Source of the DNA: Sipunculus nudus
Lineage: Eukaryota; Annelida; Sipuncula; Golfingiida; Sipunculidae
Assembly: GCA_026874595.1 (NCBI GenBank)
Contig: CM049314.1
Coordinates: 72,120,300 to 72,184,299 of the forward strand
Direction: 5' to 3'
DNA: 64,000 bases
Program-made: the position numbers and the translations under genes
Notes under the pieces: generated by a model
Database searches by the model: none
The model's input: the letters and a program-made list of their open reading frames with translations, nothing else
Told to the model about the DNA's origin: nothing
Shown here: positions 2,180 to 50,568 of the stretch, in pieces
How positions within the stretch are numbered: the first letter of the stretch is position 1
Layout: every line of letters begins with the position of its first letter

Positions 2180-2211
2180 CTTCCTCTTCCGCTTATCGGC
2201 CATACTGGTGC
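2180..2211 (+). other. RPL8: Probable non-coding first exon of RPL8 (TOP-type start)
   Basis: The coding part of RPL8 begins only 10 bases after a splice acceptor, so a 5' UTR exon must lie upstream. CTTCCTCTTCC at 2180 looks like the 5'-terminal oligopyrimidine start typical of ribosomal protein mRNAs. It is followed within about 30 bases by a donor (GTAAGG at 2212, or GTGCGT at 2208). The resulting intron, to 4412, would contain a C/D snoRNA, which supports it being transcribed and spliced. No TATA box is evident. The exact TSS and donor are inferred. Confidence 0.4.
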
Positions 2212-2957
2212 GTAAGGATTCTTGAAAACACGATATGAATCCGGCTAAATCTACCACTAATGCTTGTCATCATAGGTTCACTGTGAAACATAACATGACA
2301 TTTGATTCATATATTCTTAATGTGCACATATTGTAACTGTATCATTGCTAGGTTTAAGTATATTTAACGTGTCTGTCCCCATGATACCTCTGGAACTGTA
2401 CCCACAACACGTTACCGGTGGGACACGAAATGGATAGAGTGGGATTCCACGAGCTTCCCCAGGGGAATACAAAGCAGCAGAAATCATAGAGGTTAAGCGA
2501 AAATTTGAAACTTTTATGCAGCCCTTACACGGTTAAGATTTGTGAAAAATAAAAGCATATCTTCTGGTGCCAAGTAATTGCGGGGTTCGGAATTTTAAAA
2601 GTGTGTGTCATCTTTGTCTTCGACTTCATGACATAAAAAAATAAAGTTAAACCAATCGGGGGGAAAAATCAAAACTCTGCTGTCGAGCAGGTAAAATGTG
2701 AATAAGAATGTGAATAAGGTTTTACGTAACCTTGTGGTGATTTAATTATTTTTAACTATATCAACCAAACTTGTCGATTACCCCCAACTTCATCTACAGG
2801 TACAACTATAGTATAAGCAGCCAGTGTAATAGCCCTATTTAATGTGACTCAATATTATGTGTCTGCAATATAAGTCTCAGACTACACACCACCCAGTGCC
2901 CTTGTCATCAGTGTCAACAGGTGTTTATTACCCTGTGCCAGTGCATCACATCGGAGC

Positions 2958-3045
2958 TGGGCCCGTTGAAACAAAATTTAACCAAATCGGGCTGTCAGTC
3001 GATCTGAGTCGGCAAGGCCGCTATTGAGGTCTGTAAACGGGCCCA
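2958..3045. repeat. Short inverted repeat (10-bp arms)
   Basis: TGGGCCCGTT at 2958-2967 is matched by AACGGGCCCA at 3036-3045, giving a perfect 10-bp inverted repeat around about 68 bases, inside the presumed first intron of RPL8. It could be a relic foldback or MITE end, or chance. Confidence 0.4.
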
Positions 3046-3739
3046 TTTGACTGTTTTCTGTCCCTACTAAACTTGCTGACATGCCTCTTATAAAAAAAAA
3101 GTCTGTTAATGTTTAAAAATGATCCAAGTTTAATTGTAGTTACTATTGAAACCATGTAATCCTTGTTATGCCTTGTTGTTTGGCAGTAAACAAGCAGGCA
3201 AAGAAGATGCAACGGATCTGTTGCCTGTTCCATGGGTTATATTGTAGAAACTCTCACTGTATGGCTATCGGACTCAATATATGGCAGGGCCTAATAATAG
3301 AGTCGATTAAATTGGGCTACCAGTATAAATGCTATTATTAAAGCCATTTATTAAAGGTGAGCTCCAGCAATCATGATTGACTGTTCCATTTATTAGGTGC
3401 ATATGAAACCCAAGTAGACCAGTGTTGGCAATATGCTGGACTAAGGCTTGATATCTAAATTTGACTCTTAGTTTTAAATCATCCTGAGAAGTTTTTAAAG
3501 CCAAACTATTTGAGTGATTCTGGTCTTTTATGGGCATGGAAGTGAAGTTGTGCTTGGTGCACAACGTGAGATAGTTGCATAAACTTGAAGATTAGATGTA
3601 TAAATGACCATCCGTGTTGAAGTTGAAGTTTGTACTCGTTCCAATAGCTTTAAAGTTTAGTATTGAATCAGATTTAAGAGTCTCATATTTTATTTCTATT
3701 TTTTGCATATTTATTTGAAACACGAATCAAGCACTCCAT

Positions 3740-3818
3740 CATTGTCATGATGAACTACATCCCCCTGAAATTCATTGAGGAAATTTTATGGGAATCCTCT
3801 AAGAAGTTCTGAACAATA
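3740..3818 (+). ncRNA. Box C/D snoRNA, 18S guide, copy A (RPL8 intron 1)
   Basis: Box C ATGATGA lies at 3747-3753 and box D CTGA at 3809-3812. They are enclosed by a 5-bp terminal stem (ATTGT 3741-3745 with ACAAT 3813-3817). An internal CTGA follows the CCCC run, and a C'-like ATTGAGGA follows that. The guide before box D, TCCTCTAAGAAGTT, is complementary to the conserved 18S segment AACUUCUUAGAGGGA. By the D+5 rule the target is the second U of AACUU, which I believe is human 18S U1668. A sister copy with the same guide sits in the next intron. Confidence 0.78.
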
Positions 3819-4422
3819 GGAGTCTGATTAACATATTTGTCAGGTAGCAAAAGGATTGAGTTTATTTACATATGCACCTCTACATGCAGTTTTCCTATTA
3901 AATTAAAGGTTGTATTCGGCTCCCTCAGTTTGACTTTTTTGACTCGGTAAATAGGTCAATGGCATAAGACCTTTAACTTTGAGGAACTGGGATATCACCT
4001 TTTATGCACTATCTGTTTTATAAGATGCATGGAAATGTATATGGACTGAAACCCATTTGGATCCTACCCATATGTCCTACAGAATAATTAACAACAACAT
4101 GTAACAACATCAAGACACTATTTTGTACTAAATGGAATTCCCAGTTTTTCCTGCGGGAACTTGAAACGTAACCGTTTTAATAATGAAAAAAAAATCAATT
4201 TACTTGCATATTTAATTGTATGTAGACTAGTTTCCATATATATGTAATGTATGCATTTTTGTTTGGTCAAACTTCCAATGTTTTGTGATTTGTTATTGTA
4301 AATGTAGCTGTGATATCTTGGAATATTTTGTCTAGATAACCGTGGTCAGTTGAAATAAGCCTCAGTGGTGACATTTGATGAATAAATCATTTAATTTTGA
4401 TATTTTTTCCAGAAAGACCACC

Positions 4423-7400
4423 ATGGGTCGAGTAATCAGGAGCCAGCGTAAAGGCCCTGGGAGTGTGTTCAAAGCTCACACCAAAAACCGCAAAGGGGCA
4501 GCCAAGCTCCGTGCATTTGATTTTGCCGAGCGACATGGCTACATCAAGGGTGTCATCAGGGTGAGTGTATCTGTCATGTTACGCCAATAATAGTTCTATA
4601 AACTGAATTAAACAGAATATACATGGTTGTGAAAGTGAATTGTTAATTTTTTGCCTATGAATATCATATTGAATGTATGATTAGTAGTGTTGGGAGTCAC
4701 CTCCTTGGCCATAATGGATCATGGACAGCATATCAACTAGCAGTTATGATGAACTTTGAAGGTCTGAGTTTCTCAATGAAGAAACATCGAATTGTCCTCT
4801 AAGAAGTTCTGAACACTTCTAATAATGTAAAGCCACATATTAAAGTGTTATATGTTGTATGTAAGGCAGCAACAACAAAAAATTGTACAGCCAAGAGATT
4901 TGACACTAGCAAGGTTTTCTTGGTAATATAACTGGTCCTTTTGTATATATGGCAGTGATGTAGGCAGGGCCAACAATGATAGGGACCTTGAAATCTGATA
5001 CCAATACCATAAGATTCCAGACCAGAATGGAATTACTCGAGACAGTGACCTAGATTTTATATATTTATCCAGCTGACATCAGGGTTGCAACTTAATTATT
5101 CCAGAGCCAGTGTCCCCATAAATATCAGTGAAGCCATGATCAAATGGTTTGTGAGCATTATATCATTACGGAACCAGGTCAAACAAACAATCGGTGTGGA
5201 CATATAACCTCTTTTCAATCAGGAATGCATCTTCAAACAGAGAGAAAATGATGTGTAAGCGTTGTTACATCAGTCATACTGTGTATCCTTCTGTAATTTG
5301 AGGGGCCTGGTCAGAAAAAGTGTTATTCCCCTCACAGGATGCTGACTTCTGGACAGATTTATTTTTCCTAATTCCCTAAATGGGGACTGCCATTTTGCGT
5401 GGAAACTAAAACTCAGATGTCACAGTTGGCATGTCTTATTTATCTGTACTGCTAGTATTCATAAAACTGGATTTCTGTTTAGTTTTGAAATCAAGAATAG
5501 AGTAGGGAACTGATATCATCAACTTGAGACACTGAAAATAATTTCTGCCACCAAGACTTGAGTCCCACAAGAAATGTTCCCACAATGCCTCGAGACCAAA
5601 ACTGGTCTTAAGATCTACATCACTGCTTTATAGCTTATTGGTTTGACACAGAGGTACCAGTATTAACTTCCTTTAGTTCAATAAAGATTTGTGTTTGATC
5701 CTCCATAAATCAGCAATTATCGGATGTAAAAGACAAGCATACATGTAATATTTTTTCTATACTTAATTACAATTGCTATGTCTGAACTCTGAGATGCTGA
5801 ACAGCTGTTGATGTGTTGGTATATTTATGACAGGACATCATCCACGATCCAGGCCGTGGTGCACCATTGGCCAAAGTAGTGTTCAGGGATCCTTACCGTT
5901 ACAAGATGAGGACTGAGACATTCATCGCTGCTGAGGGCATGTACACTGGGCAGTTTGTCTACTGTGGAAAAAAAGGTATCTATAATTGTCATATCTCTTC
6001 TTATTTTAGTCATGTATTCCAGTTGAAGTGGCATCCCTTGCATGTACTCAGTCATTCAAATTAACCCAGAAGGTGTTATTGATTAAATTCTGGTTAGGCT
6101 CAATTTAAAATATAGTACATCTAATTCTTCCCTTCTAAAAGTGAATTTTCAAAAAATAAATTAAAAAAAATAATGAACTTTTTAGCACTGTGCCAGATTA
6201 AAATATGTACATGTTTTACAGTCTAATATAAATACAAATGAAATTTTTGAATTATTTTTTAAAGCCTCGAAAGGTTACTGAATTTTAAACATCTTGTGGA
6301 GTTATTTAAATGACCCTTTTGTCTCTGACGCTATAGGAGAATGTCTTTATCCCCAGACTTTTACTAAATGATTTGTATTTCAAAAGCTGAATGTTGACAC
6401 AAATCACCAGTCACCAGAACATATCAGAAATTTTAATTTGCCATCTAGACTTGAGCAGTTTATTGTTAAATTGTATATGTAGCATTCACCTTGTGGGATG
6501 TGCAGGTCTTTCATGATTGCTACTGAAAACCCCTTTAGTATGCATATAGATTAACTGACAGCGTGTCTGGTAAAAAAGACTCCTCAGTCTGCCATGATGC
6601 TACAAAAATTTCTTCACTTTGACCTGAATGGTTCATGTGGACAAATGTTTTTAAATACTGAGCAGACACTACAGTGAGCAAGACTGGAAGTGGTGACCTT
6701 GTATTTCTCAAGTGGAGATGTATGATTTTAATGAAAATCTTAGAGATATTGTCAAATATAATATCTCCATTCATCTCTTGGCAAAATCCACACATTTGAT
6801 AAGGTCAGAGGTCACCAGTAAATGGCTCAGCTGTGATGAAAGATGAAAAATCTTATGGATTTTCTTGAAACTCGCTATATATATTAACCAGTCGAGTGTC
6901 TTGAATTAATAATAATTCAGTTATCGGGAAAATGCACACACATTAAATGTGGTCAGAGGTCACCAGGCTTCTTTGAGGTACTTCTGTGGTAAATAGGAAT
7001 CTTGACTGGTTTTGATGGTATTCAGTATAAATATGTTACCGTTAAAGTAACTGCTCCTATGTCCATTTATCTGCAGAATATGTGCATATTGAAAAGTTCA
7101 AATGTCACACAAAGTAATCTCTTTGTTATTTTCAGCCACCCTCCAGGTAGGAAACATCATGCCGGTAGGAACCATGCCCGAGGGAACCATCGTGTGTTGT
7201 CTCGAGGAGAAGACCGGAGACCGTGGACGTATTGCCCGTGCCTCCGGAGGTTACGCCACAGTGATCGCCCACAACCACGACACAAAGAAAACAAGGGTCA
7301 AGCTCCCATCTGGCACCAAGAAAACTATCCCATCAGCCAACAGGGCTGTTGTAGGTCAGTGAAAACTCTTTATTTCTGTTTTGCGAGTTCAATCCATTGT

Positions 7401-10400
7401 AGTCTAAATGTTAAACCCCTGTCTGCTGTGATGTAGAAAAATTTCTTCACTTTGACCTGAAGTTTTATGTGGACAAATATTCACAATGTACTGAGCAGAT
7501 TGGGAGAAATAGGATTTGCTGGTTGTGCAATTGAACATACTAATATAGTAAAAGTAGAAAATAATTTTTTTTTTGCTCATTGCTCTTTCATCCTCATTTT
7601 TAGCTCAGCTGACTTTCAGTCATGCTGGGCTATAGTGATGGGTCTTTGTCCGGCGTCCCTCCGTCTGTCCGTCCGGCCGTCTGTCCGTTAGCAGGGCACA
7701 AATCGTAACCGTAGGGGCTAGGGCCATGAACCCTATGCAGTCTAAGAGGTTATAAAAAGATCTTAAAAAAAGAAGTTATGGGGTGTGTTTGCACCCCCCA
7801 GAAATAACTCTTTGAGACAAAATTTTCATCCCAAACCTTCCATCTTTCACATACAGCTCATCTACCAACAGGGGAAGAACCATAATTTTTTTTAGGTTCA
7901 AAGGTCAAGGTCACAGGAGCCTCTTCTTTGAAAAGCCTGTGGATGCATTTCAAGCCAACCCTTTCATCCCAATTCTTTGATCTTTCACATATAGCTCACC
8001 TACTAAGTTGGAGAAGAATCCTATAGATTTTGAGGTCACAAGGTCAAAGGTCAGGGTCACAGGATCCACTTCTTTGAAAAGGTAGTGGACACATTTCAAG
8101 CTAGACTTTTCATTCCAAACCTTCCAGCACTGATATCGCTTCTCTGCCAACAGGGGAAAAGACCTGTTGATTTTGAGGTCAAAGGTCAAGTTCACAGCAC
8201 CCACTTCTTGCGTGGAGTCATTTTCAGGCAAACTTTTCAATCTGTACCTTCCATCTGTCATATATGGCTTACCTACCAATAAGGAAAGAAGCCTATTGAT
8301 GTTGAGGTCAAAAAATCAAAGGTCAAGGTCACAATATTTTATTGTTCTAAATGCTTGTGAGCATATTTCAAGTGTAACTGTTTAACCCAAACCTTCAGTC
8401 TTTCACATATGCCACATCTATGCATCACTCAGTTTGACTCAAACTTCATATTTATGGGTCTTTTTGCTTGAATAAATAACTTATTGATTTTGGGGTCAGC
8501 TGGTCAGCAGGTTAAAGGTTGCAGGTCAGAGTTATTCACCCATTGGTTGCCAAGTAATTACACCAGATTTAAGTGGTCAGTAGTTACCCATCATTTAGAA
8601 AGAATCCAGTTGATATATGGGCAAAAGGCCAAGGTCATAGGTCAGGGATGTTCACAATTACTTATTTTATAGACCATCTCTATTTTTCTTGTATATATAA
8701 CCATCCCACTCCAGCTGTTACATCTCCCTGTGTGGCTGTAATTGTGAGTGACACTGGTGACATATGACTCCCTTTTGTACCAGCCTATTAAGTGATAAGG
8801 CTCAGTGATAAGTACCTCGTTACTTCATAACAAAAACACTGTTGTCAGAATGCTTCAGCCAGGCATTAAGACTATGAGAGTATAGTACTAAGGTTTAGCT
8901 ACTGATTTATAAGATGATGGGAACATTTTGCAGTTTATTTTATGGAATCCTAGCAATAAACTTAGTTTCCTAGATATCTGAATATTTTAATATATATCAC
9001 CACATATAAAAGCAAGTGTTTGTTCTCATAATATGTGGATGTGAACCTTGATTTAGGATGGCTTTTTGTTTTATTTCAAGACTCTTAGTCATGCTTTCTG
9101 CATTTCTTTTCTTTCAGGTTTGGCAGTTTACCTACCCTGCTGACCCCATTCAAAAGCAGAGTGATAATAAAAATATTGGACTTACACTTTTTACAATTGC
9201 ATATCTATAAATCTTATATGAGGGCCTGGACATGCCTTTTGAATTATTTTGGGCATTTATTACTGGATAATTTGCCCCAAGTTTGGTCTCTTATTGGAGA
9301 ATGTGGGATATCAAATGTCATACTTGTCAGAAATCCATTATGTCTGCCATTTAGCCACCTTAGAAATTCTTTCTTCAGGGCAGTTTCAGTAATTTTTCTT
9401 TAATGTTTGGTCCGATTTAGAGAATGTTTGTTGTCTGATTTCAGACTTGTCAGAAGTCCAATATGGCCACCAGGCAACCATCTTTTAATTCCTTTTGATC
9501 ATATTATCTCAAGAACAGTTAAAGTGAATGCAGTTGGATGTATATTTATGTAATTTTGTAAAGGATTGGGTCAAATATTTCTGAATAAATATTACCATCA
9601 TTTATAAAAGTGCAGTACAGTTGGCTTGTATTGAATAAAAATTCATACAGAAGCACCTGTTTCTCAATAATTCTTGCATGTATTTCCTTGATTTTTGCTA
9701 TATATTTTGATCTTATATTTGCCCTTTGTGGTGTTCCTTTGAGACTGACAGGTTTCAAGCAAGCTGTTGGAATAGTTCCTGATAGCTTAACAATCATGCA
9801 TTTTCCTCAGACCATCAATTCATCAATTCTTCAAAATTTGACTGGAAGTTGTGAATCTCAGTCCATGATGTCACAGGTCATGCTTGGCAGCTGAGCGTCA
9901 TGACCCATGGGTCACTTGTTAAGATCTCCCCTATAAATATTTAATTTTTTCCAGAACTGATTTGATTTGATTTGAATTCTTTTATTTAGGGGGGGGAGGG
10001 GGGAAAGCAACATTATAATTAAAGAAAATGTGATTGCAGGAATCGTTGCCGGTGGTGGCCGTATTGACAAACCACTGCTGAAAGCAGGACGTGCCTACCA
10101 CAAGTACAAGGCCAAGAGGAACTGCTGGCCTAAAGTCCGTGGTGTGGCTATGAACGTAAGTGTCCCCAACCTCTTAATTTATACCATAACTTCCTTTCAA
10201 GTAATGCACATGTGAAATTAACCTTTCAAACTATCACAAGTTCATTTTGCAGAATTCCCACTTTGATGATAAACAAGTTTGAAATTTTATTGGCACATGA
10301 TTTCTAAAAGCCAGGTTAAAAAATGATAGGCTTCATTTAACAGTAAGCACATTAAGTTTATAGAAGAGGGCTTTATGATGAGACTGAAGTATCTGATCTC

Positions 10401-12362
10401 TGTGATAGATGTATTAACTTCAGAGGCTGTTTCTGAAAGCCCTAGCAAGCTTTTACTTACATAGTGATGCAAATTTATATCCTAAAGCTCTTAAAAAACA
10501 AATTTGCTGCCCCAGAAAAAAAAATTATTTCTGTATGTATGTAATTATTACATGTTAAAAAGATGAGTTACGGTATGCTAAAAAGCAGTAAAGCTGAATC
10601 TTGTATATGTCATAAAAGCATGAACCTGGTGCCCTGAAAAATTTGAAATTGCAGATTGACATATAAACACATACCAGTATTTAACTTGTATGCCAACTTT
10701 TGTTTGGATGTACGGTTGATATATTTATATTGTTATAAAAGTCTGATCATATACATGGCAATCATGAATTCAGTGTTGGTTAATCATATCCATTTCTTGT
10801 TGTTTACAGCCTGTTGAGCATCCTCATGGTGGTGGTAACCATCAGCATATTGGTAAAGCATCCACTGTCAGAAGAGATACTTCTGCAGGTAGAAAGGTAA
10901 GATATCACACATGTTTCTACACCAAACCATTTTCCTTACATGATCAAATGTATTGTGTCACCACGACTCAACTGTTTGCCACTGTGACATTTGAATCAAC
11001 CTTTTCATTAAGGATATATAATTTATAAATCAATCTTTTAGTTTGTCATAGCATTATCAGATGTAGCTAATTCAGAGACATGTTCAGGAAGCAGTATTTG
11101 AAAACCCTAACAGATAAATATAAAGCTGATTATATTAGGTTATCTTGAATTTTTATTGCTTTTCTCTGTATTGCTTGTTTAGTAACCTTGATAAATATGA
11201 TATGACGATAAAGGAACAAAAAAGGTTGACCATTTGAACTGCTTACAGTTTAGGAAATCACTGCCGCCTATATATAAATGGAAAAGCTGCCTGTGCCTTT
11301 TGGAAGGGAGATGACTGATAAACAGGGTTGAAATGATGATGACTGGAGTACCTGAGTTTAATGAGGATCTCATACTTCAGAGGCTGTTTCTGAACACCCT
11401 GCTTTCATGATCTCATTCTATTAATGACATAGAATTGTTTAGGAACTGGTCGGTTTACCATGGTTTAATTCTAAAATTGCTATTCACGTATGACTGTTAT
11501 ATTAGAGATTGAAAATTTTATAATTAAAGTTGCTGTGAAACCTAGATGGCTAAGTGGTTATAGTATAAGACTGGAAACTCCTTCCCAGCTAATCCACTCA
11601 TTTCAAGCATGACATATATTTGCAAGTCTCACTCGTGATGCTTAAGGCTTGCCTTATTAGGTATAACCATAAGTCCATAACTTACTTGCATTACCAAAAT
11701 ACACAAACTCAACTGGTAACAACTAATTCACTCGACTTCAATAGTTAATCACTTTCCAAGGGCAAGTAAAAGTTCCTGGAAATTTTGGTATGGCAACTAA
11801 GTTGCATCTAGTTGCCTCACTGGGCCAGTTGGTCCAACATACTCAACTAAGGGTCTGAATTATAACTTCTCTTCTTATCTTCGGCTAACCATTTTCTTTC
11901 CTGGAGAAAAAAAGTCATATTGCTAACACCACTCTACCTTAAGTTACGAGCATATATGTATGAACATATACTTAAGGGAAATTGAATGAACAACAAACAG
12001 TTGAATATATTGTCTATCATGCAGTAAAATGGGCAAAAAAAATCATATTGAACATTATTTATGGAGTGATCTTGTAAGGCAAGTGAAACTTAATGTAGGG
12101 GAGGTAATTTATTGATGTCAGGCAAGAACTTTCAAAAGGGTGTCTGACCCTTGATTGGCTGTGACTGGAACTTCCATTGTCACTTAATTTTTAGACATAC
12201 AGACTTCCTAAATGTATTCGACAAACCATGTTACATGTATTAAAAAAACATGCTGACTAATGTTGTTTGTTGCATTGACAGGTTGGTCTGATTGCTGCCC
12301 GCCGTACTGGTCGTCTCCGTGGTACAAAACAACTGACAGGAAAGGCTGCCGAAAAGGAATAA
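4423..12362 (+). CDS. RPL8: 60S ribosomal protein L8 (uL2), six coding exons
   Basis: Core protein of the 60S subunit near the peptidyl transferase centre. Coding exons: 4423-4560, 5834-5975, 7136-7354, 10040-10155, 10810-10896 and 12282-12362. All have GT/AG borders and phases that join exactly into 260 residues, against about 257 in vertebrates. The frame opens [11 protein letters not shown] and includes the uL2 signatures [20 protein letters not shown] and [10 protein letters not shown]. His216 in NHQHIG falls at the position known to be hydroxylated in human RPL8. The start ATG lies in CCACCATGG, an ideal Kozak context, 10 bases after an acceptor at 4411-4412. Every intron carries a C/D snoRNA. 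Intron 4 (7355-10039) is swollen by a 2.3-kb repeat insertion. No frameshift or stop was seen; it appears functional. Confidence 0.97.
4737..4820 (+). ncRNA. Box C/D snoRNA, 18S guide, copy B (RPL8 intron 2)
   Basis: Box C ATGATGA lies at 4746-4752 and box D CTGA at 4809-4812. D' is the CTGA of GGTCTGAG, and a C'-like AATGAAG follows. The guide before box D is identical to copy A (TCCTCTAAGAAGTT) and matches 18S AACUUCUUAGAGGA. The rest of the body has diverged from A, so only the boxes and the box-D guide are conserved. The terminal stem is weak (about 3 bp), so the exact ends are uncertain. Confidence 0.7.
6587..6667 (+). ncRNA. Box C/D snoRNA, 28S guide, copy C (RPL8 intron 3)
   Basis: A perfect 6-bp terminal stem (GTCTGC 6587-6592 with GCAGAC 6662-6667) encloses box C ATGATGC (6594-6600), D' CTGA (6624-6627), a weak C' (TGTGGA) and box D CTGA (6658-6661). 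The guide lies before D': AATTTCTTCACTTTGAC is complementary over 17 bases to the 28S core segment GUCAAAGUGAAGAAAUU. The predicted methylated base is the second A of GUCAAAG. The stretch before box D is not shared with its sister, so it probably does not guide. Confidence 0.78.
7421..7500 (+). ncRNA. Box C/D snoRNA, 28S guide, copy D (RPL8 intron 4)
   Basis: Sister of the intron-3 snoRNA. The terminal stem GTCTGC (7421-7426) pairs with GCAGAT (7495-7500, one G-U). Box C is a slightly degenerate GTGATGT (7428-7434), D' CTGA is at 7457-7460 and D CTGA at 7491-7494. The D' guide AATTTCTTCACTTTGAC is identical to copy C and again matches 28S GUCAAAGUGAAGAAAUU. It lies about 70 bases downstream of the donor, the position often favoured for snoRNAs released from introns, and upstream of the repeat insertion. 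Confidence 0.77.
7597..9919 (+). mobile_element. Non-autonomous repeat element, copy 1 (inside RPL8 intron 4)
   Basis: Starts TTTTTAGCTCAGCTGACT and ends in the 14-bp palindrome TGACCCATGGGTCA (9901-9914) followed by CTTG. GCTCAGCTG near the start recurs inverted as CAGCTGAGC near the end. A CCGT/CCGTCTGT tract follows the 5' hairpin. The interior holds many AGGTCA half-sites and no long open frame. It is near-identical to copy 3 at 19.55 kb but lacks about 60 bases near 7757 and about 90 near 9822. Hairpins, subterminal inverted repeats, an internal tetranucleotide tract and T-rich borders suggest a Helentron/HINE-type rolling-circle relative. The family assignment is inference. Confidence 0.75.
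9986..10003. repeat. G-rich run
   Basis: GGGGGGG-A-GGGGGG-type tract just upstream of RPL8 exon 5, part of a window-wide excess of G or C homopolymers. Confidence 0.7.
10367..10443 (+). ncRNA. Box C/D snoRNA, 28S guide, copy E (RPL8 intron 5)
   Basis: A perfect 7-bp terminal stem (AGGGCTT 10367-10373 with AAGCCCT 10437-10443) encloses box C ATGATGA (10375-10381), D' CTGA in TATCTGATC, C' TGATAGA and box D CTGA (10433-10436). The box-D guide CAGAGGCTGTTT pairs with 28S GAACAGCCUCUG over 12 bases with one G-U. The predicted target is the A of GAACA. Its sister with the same guide is in intron 6. Confidence 0.87.
11323..11401 (+). ncRNA. Box C/D snoRNA, 28S guide, copy F (RPL8 intron 6)
   Basis: A terminal stem CAGGGT (11323-11328) with ACCCTG (11396-11401) encloses box C (ATGATGA in ATGATGATGA, 11333-11342), D' CTGA in ACCTGAG, a C' ATGAGGA and box D CTGA (11390-11393). 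The guide before D, ACTTCAGAGGCTGTTT, matches copy E and pairs with 28S GAACAGCCUCUG. The D' region differs from copy E. Confidence 0.86.
11540..11615 (+). repeat. Decayed tRNA-like (SINE?) fragment
   Basis: TGGCTAAGTGG (11547-11557) fits a pol III A box. About 55 bases on, CATTTCAAGC resembles a weak B box. No tail or copies elsewhere were found in the window. Lies in the last RPL8 intron. Confidence 0.3.
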
Positions 12363-30461: not shown

Positions 30462-31955
30462 TTTTGAAGCACTATCGGCCAATATCTAACCTTTTGTTCC
30501 TTACTAAAGTGTTAGAAAAGATCGTTGCCACTCGTATCACTTCATACATGAAGGAAAACCATTTGTATGAAGACCAACAGTCTGCATATAGACCTTTTCA
30601 TAGCACTGAAACATGCCTGCTCAAAGTATATAACGATCTTGTCTGGGCTATGGACTCCCAACAAGTATCCATTCTCATACTATTGGATTTATCTGCTGCC
30701 TTTGATGTAGTGGATCATCAGCTCCTGTTACAACGGTTGTCCACCAGGCTTGGAATAAGTGGAGATGCCTTGCAATGGATAAGGTCATACCTGTGCAATC
30801 GAAGTCAGTGTATCAGTGTTGCAGGTCATAAGTCTTCTCCAACTGAGATCACCTACGGTGTTCCACAAGGTTCTGTGCTGGGGCCTCTGTTTTTTACAAT
30901 TTACACATTACCACTTGGTGAATTAGTACGACAGCATGGAATGGATTATCATTTTTATGCTGATGACAGTCAAATTTATGTATCATTTAAACCAGAATCA
31001 AAGGTTCCTATTTCTACCATTGAAACATGCTTGCATGACATAGGTGTTTGGATGTGTCAGAATCTGCTTAAACTCAATGCTGATAAAACTGAGGTTCTGA
31101 TTATCGATACAAACCAGCAAAGGTCAAAAATTCAGTTGAAAACTCTTAATATATTTGACTCTGTAGTTGTGCCAACAAACTGTGCTAGGAACCTGGGGGT
31201 TGTTTTTGACCAAGGGCTTTGCCTTGATAAGCATGTAAATAATATTTGTAGTTTGGCTTTTTACCACCTGCGTAATATAGCTAGGATAAAGGGTTTCCTA
31301 ACTCAAGATTCACAAATAACATTAATTCATGCGTTCATCAGTTCAAGGATTGACTGTTACAACTCTTTGCTATGTGGTCTTCCTAGCAAGTTACTGGACC
31401 GGCTTCAGCGAGTGCAGAATGCAGCTGCTAGGCTTGTAACTGGTGCCAAGAAGCGCGACCACATTACACCTATATTTAAAGAACTCCATTGGCTCCCGGA
31501 GCGACAGCGCATTGATTTTAAAATTTTATTATTAGTATACAAAGCCATAAATGGTCAATCGCCTATTTACATTAGGAACCTCTTAACTTTTTATGTTCCA
31601 GTCAGGCAGCTTAGGTCATCTGACCAAGGGCTTTTAGTGATTCCTAAAGCACGAAGTGAGATGTGTCGTTCGAGAGCTTTCTCAGCTGTGGCACCAAGGT
31701 TGTGGAATGAACTTCCGCACTCAATCAGAGCTTCACCATCTTTAGCTTCATTTAGAAGAAATCTTAAAACTTACCTTTTTATATTAGCTTTTGGTAGTTC
31801 TTAGGAATTAGGGTTTAACTTTTAGGAATCTTTGTTTTAGTAGGAATCTACATTTTATGTTTTAGAAAGACTGTGCTTTGTGTCTTGTAAAGCGCTTTTG
31901 ATAACTATTTTGATTAATTAGCGCTATATAAATTAAATATATTAATATATTATTA
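30462..31955 (+). mobile_element. 5'-truncated L2/CR1-group LINE
   Basis: Covers the reverse-transcriptase region and 3' UTR of a non-LTR retrotransposon. After the stop codon comes a short UTR with TGTAAAGCGCTTTTGATAAC and GCGCTATATAAAT, a 3' end shared by many L2-type LINEs, then an ATATTA-rich tail. The endonuclease and any ORF1 are missing, as in most 5'-truncated insertions. No target-site duplication could be made out, because the flanks are also AT-rich. Confidence 0.9.
30464..31804 (+). CDS. LINE reverse transcriptase fragment (446 codons open)
   Basis: Copies LINE RNA into DNA at the insertion site. Domain order: RT0/1 YRPISNL (residues ~4-10); motif A LLDLSAAFDVVDHQLLL (~73-89) with the first catalytic Asp; motif B GVPQGSVLGPLFF (~131-143); motif C YADDSQIY (~163-170) with the catalytic Asp pair; motif D LNADKTEVLI. 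A C-terminal ELHWLPERQRIDFKILLLVYKA region and RAFSAVAPRLWNELPHSIRA are typical of the L2/CR1 group. All catalytic residues are present and there are no stops, so the insertion may be fairly young. There is no true start codon: the listed start is a TTG just inside the truncation point. Confidence 0.93.
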   Translation: MKHYRPISNLLFLTKVLEKIVATRITSYMKENHLYEDQQSAYRPFHSTETCLLKVYNDLVWAMDSQQVSILILLDLSAAFDVVDHQLLLQRLSTRLGISGDALQWIRSYLCNRSQCISVAGHKSSPTEITYGVPQGSVLGPLFFTIYTLPLGELVRQHGMDYHFYADDSQIYVSFKPESKVPISTIETCLHDIGVWMCQNLLKLNADKTEVLIIDTNQQRSKIQLKTLNIFDSVVVPTNCARNLGVVFDQGLCLDKHVNNICSLAFYHLRNIARIKGFLTQDSQITLIHAFISSRIDCYNSLLCGLPSKLLDRLQRVQNAAARLVTGAKKRDHITPIFKELHWLPERQRIDFKILLLVYKAINGQSPIYIRNLLTFYVPVRQLRSSDQGLLVIPKARSEMCRSRAFSAVAPRLWNELPHSIRASPSLASFRRNLKTYLFILAFGSS

Positions 31956-49908: not shown

Positions 49909-50568
49909 TCAGTGACCACTATCTGCGTTATCTGAAACTGAAAGGTTGTCCGCTTGTGTTATGTTCATTTCAAAGTCCGGATCCCTGGCATCCACGGACT
50001 CACGCAGGGCATCTCTAATTAAGTCAGCCTGTGCTGCTTCGTCAGACGAGGGCGCGTCCCCAGTAACGTCACCAATAACCACGCCTGAATCTATCCCGTG
50101 CGTTATCTTACCAAGCTGTTTGCATCTTATCTCTTTATCTTTACTGTGTTTCCAGTCTTTATATGCAATCTGGAAAGCTCTTGACATGAGTATGGCGAGG
50201 ATTTTGGTTTTATCACGACTTGAACATATTACAGCATGGCACTCGTACCCTTCTCTACCGGGGTTTTTGTAAATCCATGAAAACACTCGCTCGTGGTTGG
50301 GCACCTCACTGCTAAAATGTGATATGTTGTGAATGTCGAAAACGTGAATGTTTTTACCGTTACTGTCACTTAGATGGAGGCCGTTTGGATTAATCAAGAT
50401 ATCATATTTTGTCATTCTCCTTTCGTCTACAGAGTTGTCCCATAGCCTTTGAAACGGAAGTGACGCACACCCGGTCCCTTTTGGCGTGTATGTCTCTATC
50501 TTGCCCACATAGCGTACTCCAAACTGTGGGTCGCCGGGGGTTACATCCATTTTCTTCTTCGCAAACAT
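49909..50568 (-). CDS. PTB/PID-domain protein (PID1/FAM43-like)
   Basis: A 219-residue intact frame. Residues ~16-142 form a phosphotyrosine-interaction (PTB/PID_2) domain. Strand 1 is FGVRYVGKIET, followed by the family GxGC turn (KGTGCASLP) and an LW pair (FQRLWDN). Then come GLHLSD, VFDIHNISHFSS, RVFSWIYKNPGREGYECHAV and a final helix KTKILAILMSRAFQIAYKDW. This pattern matches the PID1 and FAM43 families, cytoplasmic adaptors binding NPxY-type tails of receptors such as LRP1. The C-terminal ~75 residues are acidic, Ser/Asp-rich and probably disordered. The coding sequence is a single exon. An acceptor (TTTCTTTCTGTTAG) 16 bases before the ATG indicates a spliced 5' UTR. Which of the two families is nearer cannot be settled by eye. 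Confidence 0.85.
   Translation of the reverse strand: MFAKKKMDVTPGDPQFGVRYVGKIETYTPKGTGCASLPFQRLWDNSVDERRMTKYDILINPNGLHLSDSNGKNIHVFDIHNISHFSSEVPNHERVFSWIYKNPGREGYECHAVICSSRDKTKILAILMSRAFQIAYKDWKHSKDKEIRCKQLGKITHGIDSGVVIGDVTGDAPSSDEAAQADLIRDALRESVDARDPDFEMNITQADNLSVSDNADSGH

Follow-up and report, generated by a model that had tools for sequence, protein, structure and literature searches.

Does every intron of a single ribosomal-protein gene carry a small nucleolar RNA (snoRNA), and were the guides of these RNAs multiplied by copying from one intron into the next? The question is raised by RPL8 of Sipunculus nudus (assembly GCA_026874595.1, contig CM049314.1), which lies in a stretch of 64,000 nucleotides at positions 72,120,300 to 72,184,299 of the forward strand, hereafter the window. 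Intronic C/D snoRNAs are freed from spliced introns and guide 2'-O-methylation. An earlier note on this DNA had proposed that RPL8 holds one C/D snoRNA in each of six introns, arranged as three sister pairs in adjacent introns. Both parts of this proposal are borne out by the analysis presented here, and we give a probability of about 0.9 to the reading that the six-snoRNA set is real and that each guide was duplicated by copying into the neighboring intron.

Box C/D elements of the RPL8 introns and their guides

One box C/D snoRNA-like element is present in each of the six introns. Concerning the first of them, a splice acceptor precedes the exon with the ATG, which implies an RPL8 intron in the 5'-untranslated region (5'-UTR), and element 1 is counted as intronic because it would lie within this putative intron 1. 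The D box reads CTGA in all six elements. A full C box (RTGATGA) is found in introns 1, 2, 5, and 6, and the copies in introns 3 and 4 have a mismatch at its last base. Using 20-nt flanks and 300 shuffles for comparison, terminal stems as good as the observed ones were obtained in 3, 4, 5, 4, and 21 shuffles for introns 1, 3, 4, 5, and 6, respectively. The terminal stems of the copies in introns 5 and 6 have unlike sequences, and both still pair. With 60-nt flanks, the extended stems of introns 1, 4, 5, and 6 were equaled in 23, 17, 2, and 16 of 300 shuffles, and those of introns 2 and 3 in 184 and 176. A strict C/D scan of the window, requiring a terminal stem of at least 4, recovered four of the six elements, missing those of introns 2 and 6, and returned six more candidates elsewhere, one on the plus strand and five on the minus strand; the boxes alone are therefore not decisive. 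Searching Rfam with E-values up to 5 gave no further convincing snoRNA in RPL8, and no search aimed at H/ACA snoRNAs was made.

The six elements form three sister pairs, in introns 1+2, 3+4, and 5+6. Comparison of each element with the intron of its partner gave scores of 21/21, 47/47, and 30/32 for the three pairs, and all other element-intron combinations scored 9-13. Dinucleotide-shuffled partner introns reached maxima of 17-19, and none of 1000 shuffles attained the observed score in any of the six partner tests. The 12 non-partner comparisons among the 15 possible snoRNA-snoRNA pairs remained at background level, with scores of 7-11. When the introns were compared with each other by blastn (E up to 0.01), no match between introns was found besides the three snoRNA blocks, and in alignments extended out to 120 nt no flank blocks of comparable kind were seen by eye. 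Six introns can be matched into three pairs in 15 ways, of which (1,2)(3,4)(5,6) is one (P = 0.067); such an order is suggestive, and not strong when taken alone.

At Rfam curated cut-offs, the window contains three matches, two to SNORD61 in introns 1 and 2 and one to SNORD36 in intron 3. The covariance search of the introns that the earlier note had put forward as a check places both copies of the first pair above the gathering score of 43 of the SNORD61 model (RF00270), with 50.4 bits (E 9.7e-5) in intron 1 and 56.5 bits (E 4.9e-6) in intron 2, the E-values being for 64 kb. Their guide, TCCTCTAAGAAGTT, forms a 14-bp duplex, including one G-U pair, with a real 18S fragment of about 100 nt located at one end of a bacterial-bin contig (L001). 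In this duplex, a U of the fragment faces the guide nucleotide fifth from the D box, in agreement with the fifth-nucleotide rule, and the pairing exceeds the minimum of 10 nt expected of an rRNA complement beside a D or D' box. The human target of U61 is presumably 18S U1442. In chicken, U61 targets 18S U1397 (PMC2653536, Table 1), which we infer to be the same site as the U faced by this guide. Near the C box, 12 of 13 nt agree between the two copies, and a stretch of 21 nt spanning guide and D box is identical. As the likeness is limited to these two blocks, copying is less firmly shown for this pair than for the others.

The copies in introns 3 and 4 carry TTCTTCACTTTGACCTGA as D' guide and box, which agrees at every position with the SNORD37 consensus of Rfam. 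With the SNORD37 model (RF00440), searched at a loose threshold over 9.5 kb, matches were obtained at 7424-7485 in intron 4 (35.4 bits, E 6e-4) and at 6590-6643 in intron 3 (30.4 bits, E 0.011). Because the guide is identical and the scores lie under the cut-off, we describe this pair as carriers of the SNORD37 guide only. The target of SNORD37 in human is 28S A3697, according to the accessible text of PMC3766210. The two copies are 83.5% identical over 79 columns, and beyond guide and boxes their likeness extends to a 12-nt stretch around C' and to the greater part of the stem. The SNORD36 label of the intron 3 copy (33.8 bits, cut-off 30) needs a 6-nt insertion within the guide and was rejected as a mis-call.

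In introns 5 and 6, no Rfam family reaches its cut-off, and many C/D families match weakly. The guide and D box of both copies, CAGAGGCTGTTTCTGA, equal the SNORD95 (RF00189) consensus over 16 nt, and the SNORD95 alignments cover model positions 44-64 and 47-64 of 68. We describe this pair as carriers of the SNORD95 guide only, a choice made on guide identity and not on score. A SNORD99-like identity, considered at first, was replaced by SNORD95 after alignment of the guides. The chicken U95 target is 28S A2576 (PMC2653536, Table 1). These copies are 77-78% identical over 64-70 columns and have a D'-side block in common beyond guide and boxes.

Guides for both 18S and 28S had been proposed: the 18S guide is supported by the duplex with a real fragment, and the 28S guides of the second and third pairs are predicted from their identity with Rfam guides. 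The further claim, that selection acted on nothing but guide and boxes, is too strong: it fits the first pair, but not the second and third, which share additional blocks. As to how the set would work, the RPL8 promoter would drive transcription, and splicing would then release the snoRNA-bearing introns, to be trimmed to RNAs of 70-80 nt, each held by its terminal stem and by the proteins of the C/D core. The six RNAs would direct 2'-O-methylation by fibrillarin at three predicted rRNA sites, namely an 18S U through the SNORD61 guide, a 28S A (human A3697) through SNORD37, and a 28S A (chicken A2576) through SNORD95.

Origin of the pairs

Intragenic copying is the likeliest history of the pairs. 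An intronic snoRNA would have been copied into the adjacent intron, most likely by recombination within RPL8, yielding two copies per guide that then diverged while they retained guide and boxes, the ability of the stem to pair, and certain further blocks. We infer the route, direction, and date of this copying from comparison of the sequences. The intron-to-neighbor copying already suggested in the earlier note is in keeping with the blastn matches, which comprise the snoRNA blocks alone, and with the guide words of the first and third pairs, for which no other exact match was found in the assembly (counts being lower bounds). In the accessible text of PMC2653536, nearly all chicken snoRNA paralogues derive from intragenic duplication, the novel ones mostly in adjacent introns, and retain their guides while the remainder has diverged. 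Similarly, 59.5% of the human C/D families with at least two expressed members reside wholly in one host gene, and recombination within the host is favored as the duplication route (PMC8178906, accessible text).

The guide words were counted across the assembly (1.43 Gb, 153 contigs) with up to one mismatch, all counts being lower bounds. The SNORD95 word has at least two matches, both in RPL8 (control word, 0). The SNORD61 word has at least two exact matches, both in RPL8, and one match with one mismatch on contig C8 (control, 3). On the simplest reading, RPL8 would be the sole source of the guides of the first and third pairs. For the SNORD37 word, at least 18 matches were counted, three of them exact (two in RPL8 and one in an array on contig C1; control, 2), and 10 of the 16 matches outside RPL8 were examined. 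In both RPL8 copies, a C box precedes the word by 15-16 nt; all nine array members lack a C-box-like sequence, at up to one mismatch, in the 70 nt upstream, and the eight listed members other than the exact one read CTCA instead of CTGA. Another match with one mismatch (L027) has a C-like ATGTTGA. The guide of the second pair would probably also be made from RPL8 alone.

The array on C1 is a tandem arrangement at 37.045-37.131 Mb (L016, L019-L026), with nine matches listed at a spacing of about 4.4 or 14.3-15.4 kb.

Several observations weigh against a genuine, intragenically duplicated set. The intron 1 copy also fits SNORD20 (31.0 bits, below the cut-off of 43). Both copies of the second pair fall under the SNORD37 gathering score of 45. 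The SNORD95 model gives 17.1 bits (E 0.1) in intron 5 and 16.1 bits (E 0.2) in intron 6, below its gathering score of 55; two families rank above it there, snoR160 with 24.1 bits and the archaeal sR1 with 20.8 bits, themselves below their own cut-offs. The terminal stem of intron 2 is not above chance, with 136 of 300 shuffles equally good. The D box of the C8 match (L015, 101-190) is preceded, at a distance of 79 nt, by a word that departs from a C box at one base; the stem of this match is weak (5 pairs, -1.5 kcal/mol), and it may be a chance match or a decayed copy outside RPL8. Intact ribosomal DNA (rDNA) was not seen in the assembly. In addition, the elements sit 373-2545 nt upstream of the 3' splice site. 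Mammalian intronic C/D snoRNAs lie a short distance from this site, and the 5-7 bp stems in five of the six RPL8 elements may stand in for such proximity.

How far do these points favor other explanations? It is hardly credible that the elements are chance C/D-like motifs of AT-rich introns: the boxes are short, and the strict scan does give candidates outside the RPL8 introns on both strands, but chance would have to produce known guides, Rfam matches, and sister pairs that none of 1000 shuffles equals. A less radical alternative holds that some copies, above all the SNORD61 copy of intron 2, are decaying and unexpressed, leaving one active copy per pair. We regard it as unlikely, while giving it more weight than any other alternative, since every one of the six elements retains an intact D box and the entire guide, and the intron 2 copy outscores that of intron 1 on the SNORD61 model; the chance-level stem of intron 2 and the failure of the strict scan to recover introns 2 and 6 speak for it.

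The elements might also be true snoRNAs whose pair members arrived separately from other hosts, by trans-duplication or retroposition. Flanking similarity between the copies is gone, the members of the first pair are alike in functional blocks alone, a decayed SNORD61-like copy possibly exists on C8, and chicken U61, U37, and U95 reside in three other genes, so guides do switch host. However, the assembly yielded no other exact SNORD61 or SNORD95 guide word within counts that are lower bounds, the second and third pairs are similar beyond boxes and guide, and all three pairs occupy adjacent introns, for which the chance is 1 in 15. Separate arrival therefore seems very improbable, and copying within RPL8 is retained as the explanation of the pairs.

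Relation to known snoRNA hosts

Copying into neighboring introns of ribosomal-protein genes is established. The closest layout is that of chicken RPS8, with C/D snoRNAs in introns 1-5, of which introns 2 and 3 hold U40/U46 and the next two, 4 and 5, hold U38 (PMC2653536, Table 1). Like RPL8, it is a ribosomal-protein gene with copies of one guide in neighboring introns; it differs in its guides, in having a single snoRNA (U39/U55) in intron 1, and in the five introns listed as opposed to six. The same table places U58 in introns 4, 5, and 6 of RPL17, U36 in introns 3 and 4 of RPL7A, and, in RPL4, U16 in introns 1 and 3 and U18 in introns 2, 5, and 6. These three genes thus repeat a guide within one gene, as does RPL8, but in this table they show no full set of adjacent pairs.

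The hosts of the three guides differ between species. SNORD61 resides in RBMX intron 2 in chicken (PMC2653536), SNORD37 in EEF2 in human (PMC3766210) and chicken (PMC2653536), and SNORD95 in GNB2L1 intron 6 in chicken (PMC2653536), whereas all three are carried by RPL8 in Sipunculus nudus. Relative to the SNORD37 family, the RPL8 copies have kept the guide and diverged in the remainder, with scores below the cut-off. Those of SNORD95 type resemble their family in the D guide and D box; for the other parts of the model, no match was reported.

Among the papers listed by the literature searches, in a collection with most subscription journals outside it, no title or abstract opening described snoRNAs in RPL8. 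RPL8 does not occur in the main text of PMC2653536 as available, and the accessible text of PMC12650397 names it, though not as a snoRNA host. The 27 Drosophila ribosomal-protein genes that host snoRNAs are left unnamed in the text consulted of PMC2246290. The arrangement had been presented as new; this is compatible with the literature searched as regards RPL8, but the layout itself has a near equivalent in chicken RPS8. What is new is RPL8 as host and the presence in one gene of guides that in chicken are spread over RBMX, EEF2, and GNB2L1. These observations extend the vertebrate pattern of neighboring-intron C/D copies to RPL8 of an apparent invertebrate, with all introns occupied, and show that guides switch host, U61, U37, and U95 being apart in chicken and together in RPL8. 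Three pairs of unequal divergence in one gene would also be useful to measure what selection retains in C/D snoRNAs.

As the D' regions differ between the copies of introns 1 and 2, and the D-side sequences between those of introns 3 and 4, the diverged second halves of the copies could split roles. RPL8 might then be the only source of the three guides in this lineage, its splicing setting both uL2 and a tunable methylation. We consider this extension quite doubtful.

The host gene, feature coordinates, and neighboring sequence

The window contains a complete RPL8 (uL2) coding sequence on the plus strand, with six coding exons joined at GT..AG, 260 amino acids (aa), and no internal stop. The protein matches Pfam Ribosomal_L2_C with 152.9 bits (cut-off 33.7), and most of it aligns with Protein Data Bank chains named 60S ribosomal protein L8/L2/uL2. 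The features are collected in the table. A sigma-70/terminator scan of 2000-2400, around the possible first exon, was discarded, as it carries no information on an animal promoter.

Features of the RPL8 locus, in window positions
Feature	Position	Strand	Details
Possible untranslated exon 1 of RPL8	2180..2211	+	pyrimidine-rich start at about 2180; GTAAGG donor at 2212; read by eye
Putative RPL8 intron 1 (5'-UTR)	2212-4412	+	
RPL8 (uL2) exons	4413-4560, 5834-5975, 7136-7354, 10040-10155, 10810-10896, 12282-12362	+	introns 2-6 in between
RPL8 start and stop codons	ATG 4423; stop 12360-12362	+	
Intron 1 C/D snoRNA, SNORD61	3744-3816	+	C box 3747; D box 3809-3812; 18S guide TCCTCTAAGAAGTT 3795-3808
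Intron 2 C/D snoRNA, SNORD61	4743-4816	+	C box 4746; D box 4809-4812; 18S guide as in intron 1; weak terminal stem
Intron 3 C/D snoRNA, SNORD37-type D' guide	6589-6666	+	CTGA 6624-6627 after guide; D box 6658-6661; 6-bp terminal stem
Intron 4 C/D snoRNA, SNORD37-type D' guide	7423-7499	+	CTGA 7457-7460 after guide; D box 7491-7494; 6-bp terminal stem
Intron 5 C/D snoRNA, SNORD95-type D guide CAGAGGCTGTTT	10369-10441	+	CTGA 10433-10436 after guide; 7-bp terminal stem
Intron 6 C/D snoRNA, SNORD95-type D guide	11329-11400	+	CTGA 11390-11393 after guide

Genome-wide, Ribosomal_L2_C has 14 matches: two exons of RPL8, 11 full-length matches, and one on contig C1 inside a 153-aa open frame. RPL8 is probably single-copy, the C1 match leaving slight doubt. 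The 11 full-length L2 genes have open frames of 278-279 aa and are distributed over ten contigs (C61, C62, C66, C72-C75, C89, C99, and C132), eight of which measure 0.06-2.2 Mb (L002-L009). These ten small contigs are probably bacterial symbionts or contaminants.

The search for rDNA in the assembly gave no match to a 28S word with up to one mismatch and two matches to an 18S word with up to two mismatches (L028 and L029). L028 has no gathering-level Rfam match. At L029 (C17), decayed and rearranged 18S pieces extend over 1500-1925, with a stretch resembling the 3' half (by eye) followed by a 5' part, and 1648-1925 matches SSU_rRNA_eukarya with 63.9 bits. Eukaryotic rRNA was not found in viral contigs, plasmids, or phages, sought as a source of 28S; in one case, matches of 60-80% identity to phage-collection records were obtained, one among those listed being annotated as 23S rRNA.

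Within RPL8 intron 4, positions 7823-8409 hold degenerate internal repeats, among them several pairs, 18-48 nt long and 85-100% identical, and GGTCAAAGGTCAAGGTCAC-like units. Elsewhere in the window, a 446-aa open frame whose sequence matches the reverse transcriptase domain RVT_1 (105.2 bits) occupies 30464-31804, and the minus strand carries, at 49909-50568, an open frame containing a domain for phosphotyrosine interaction (PTB/PID).

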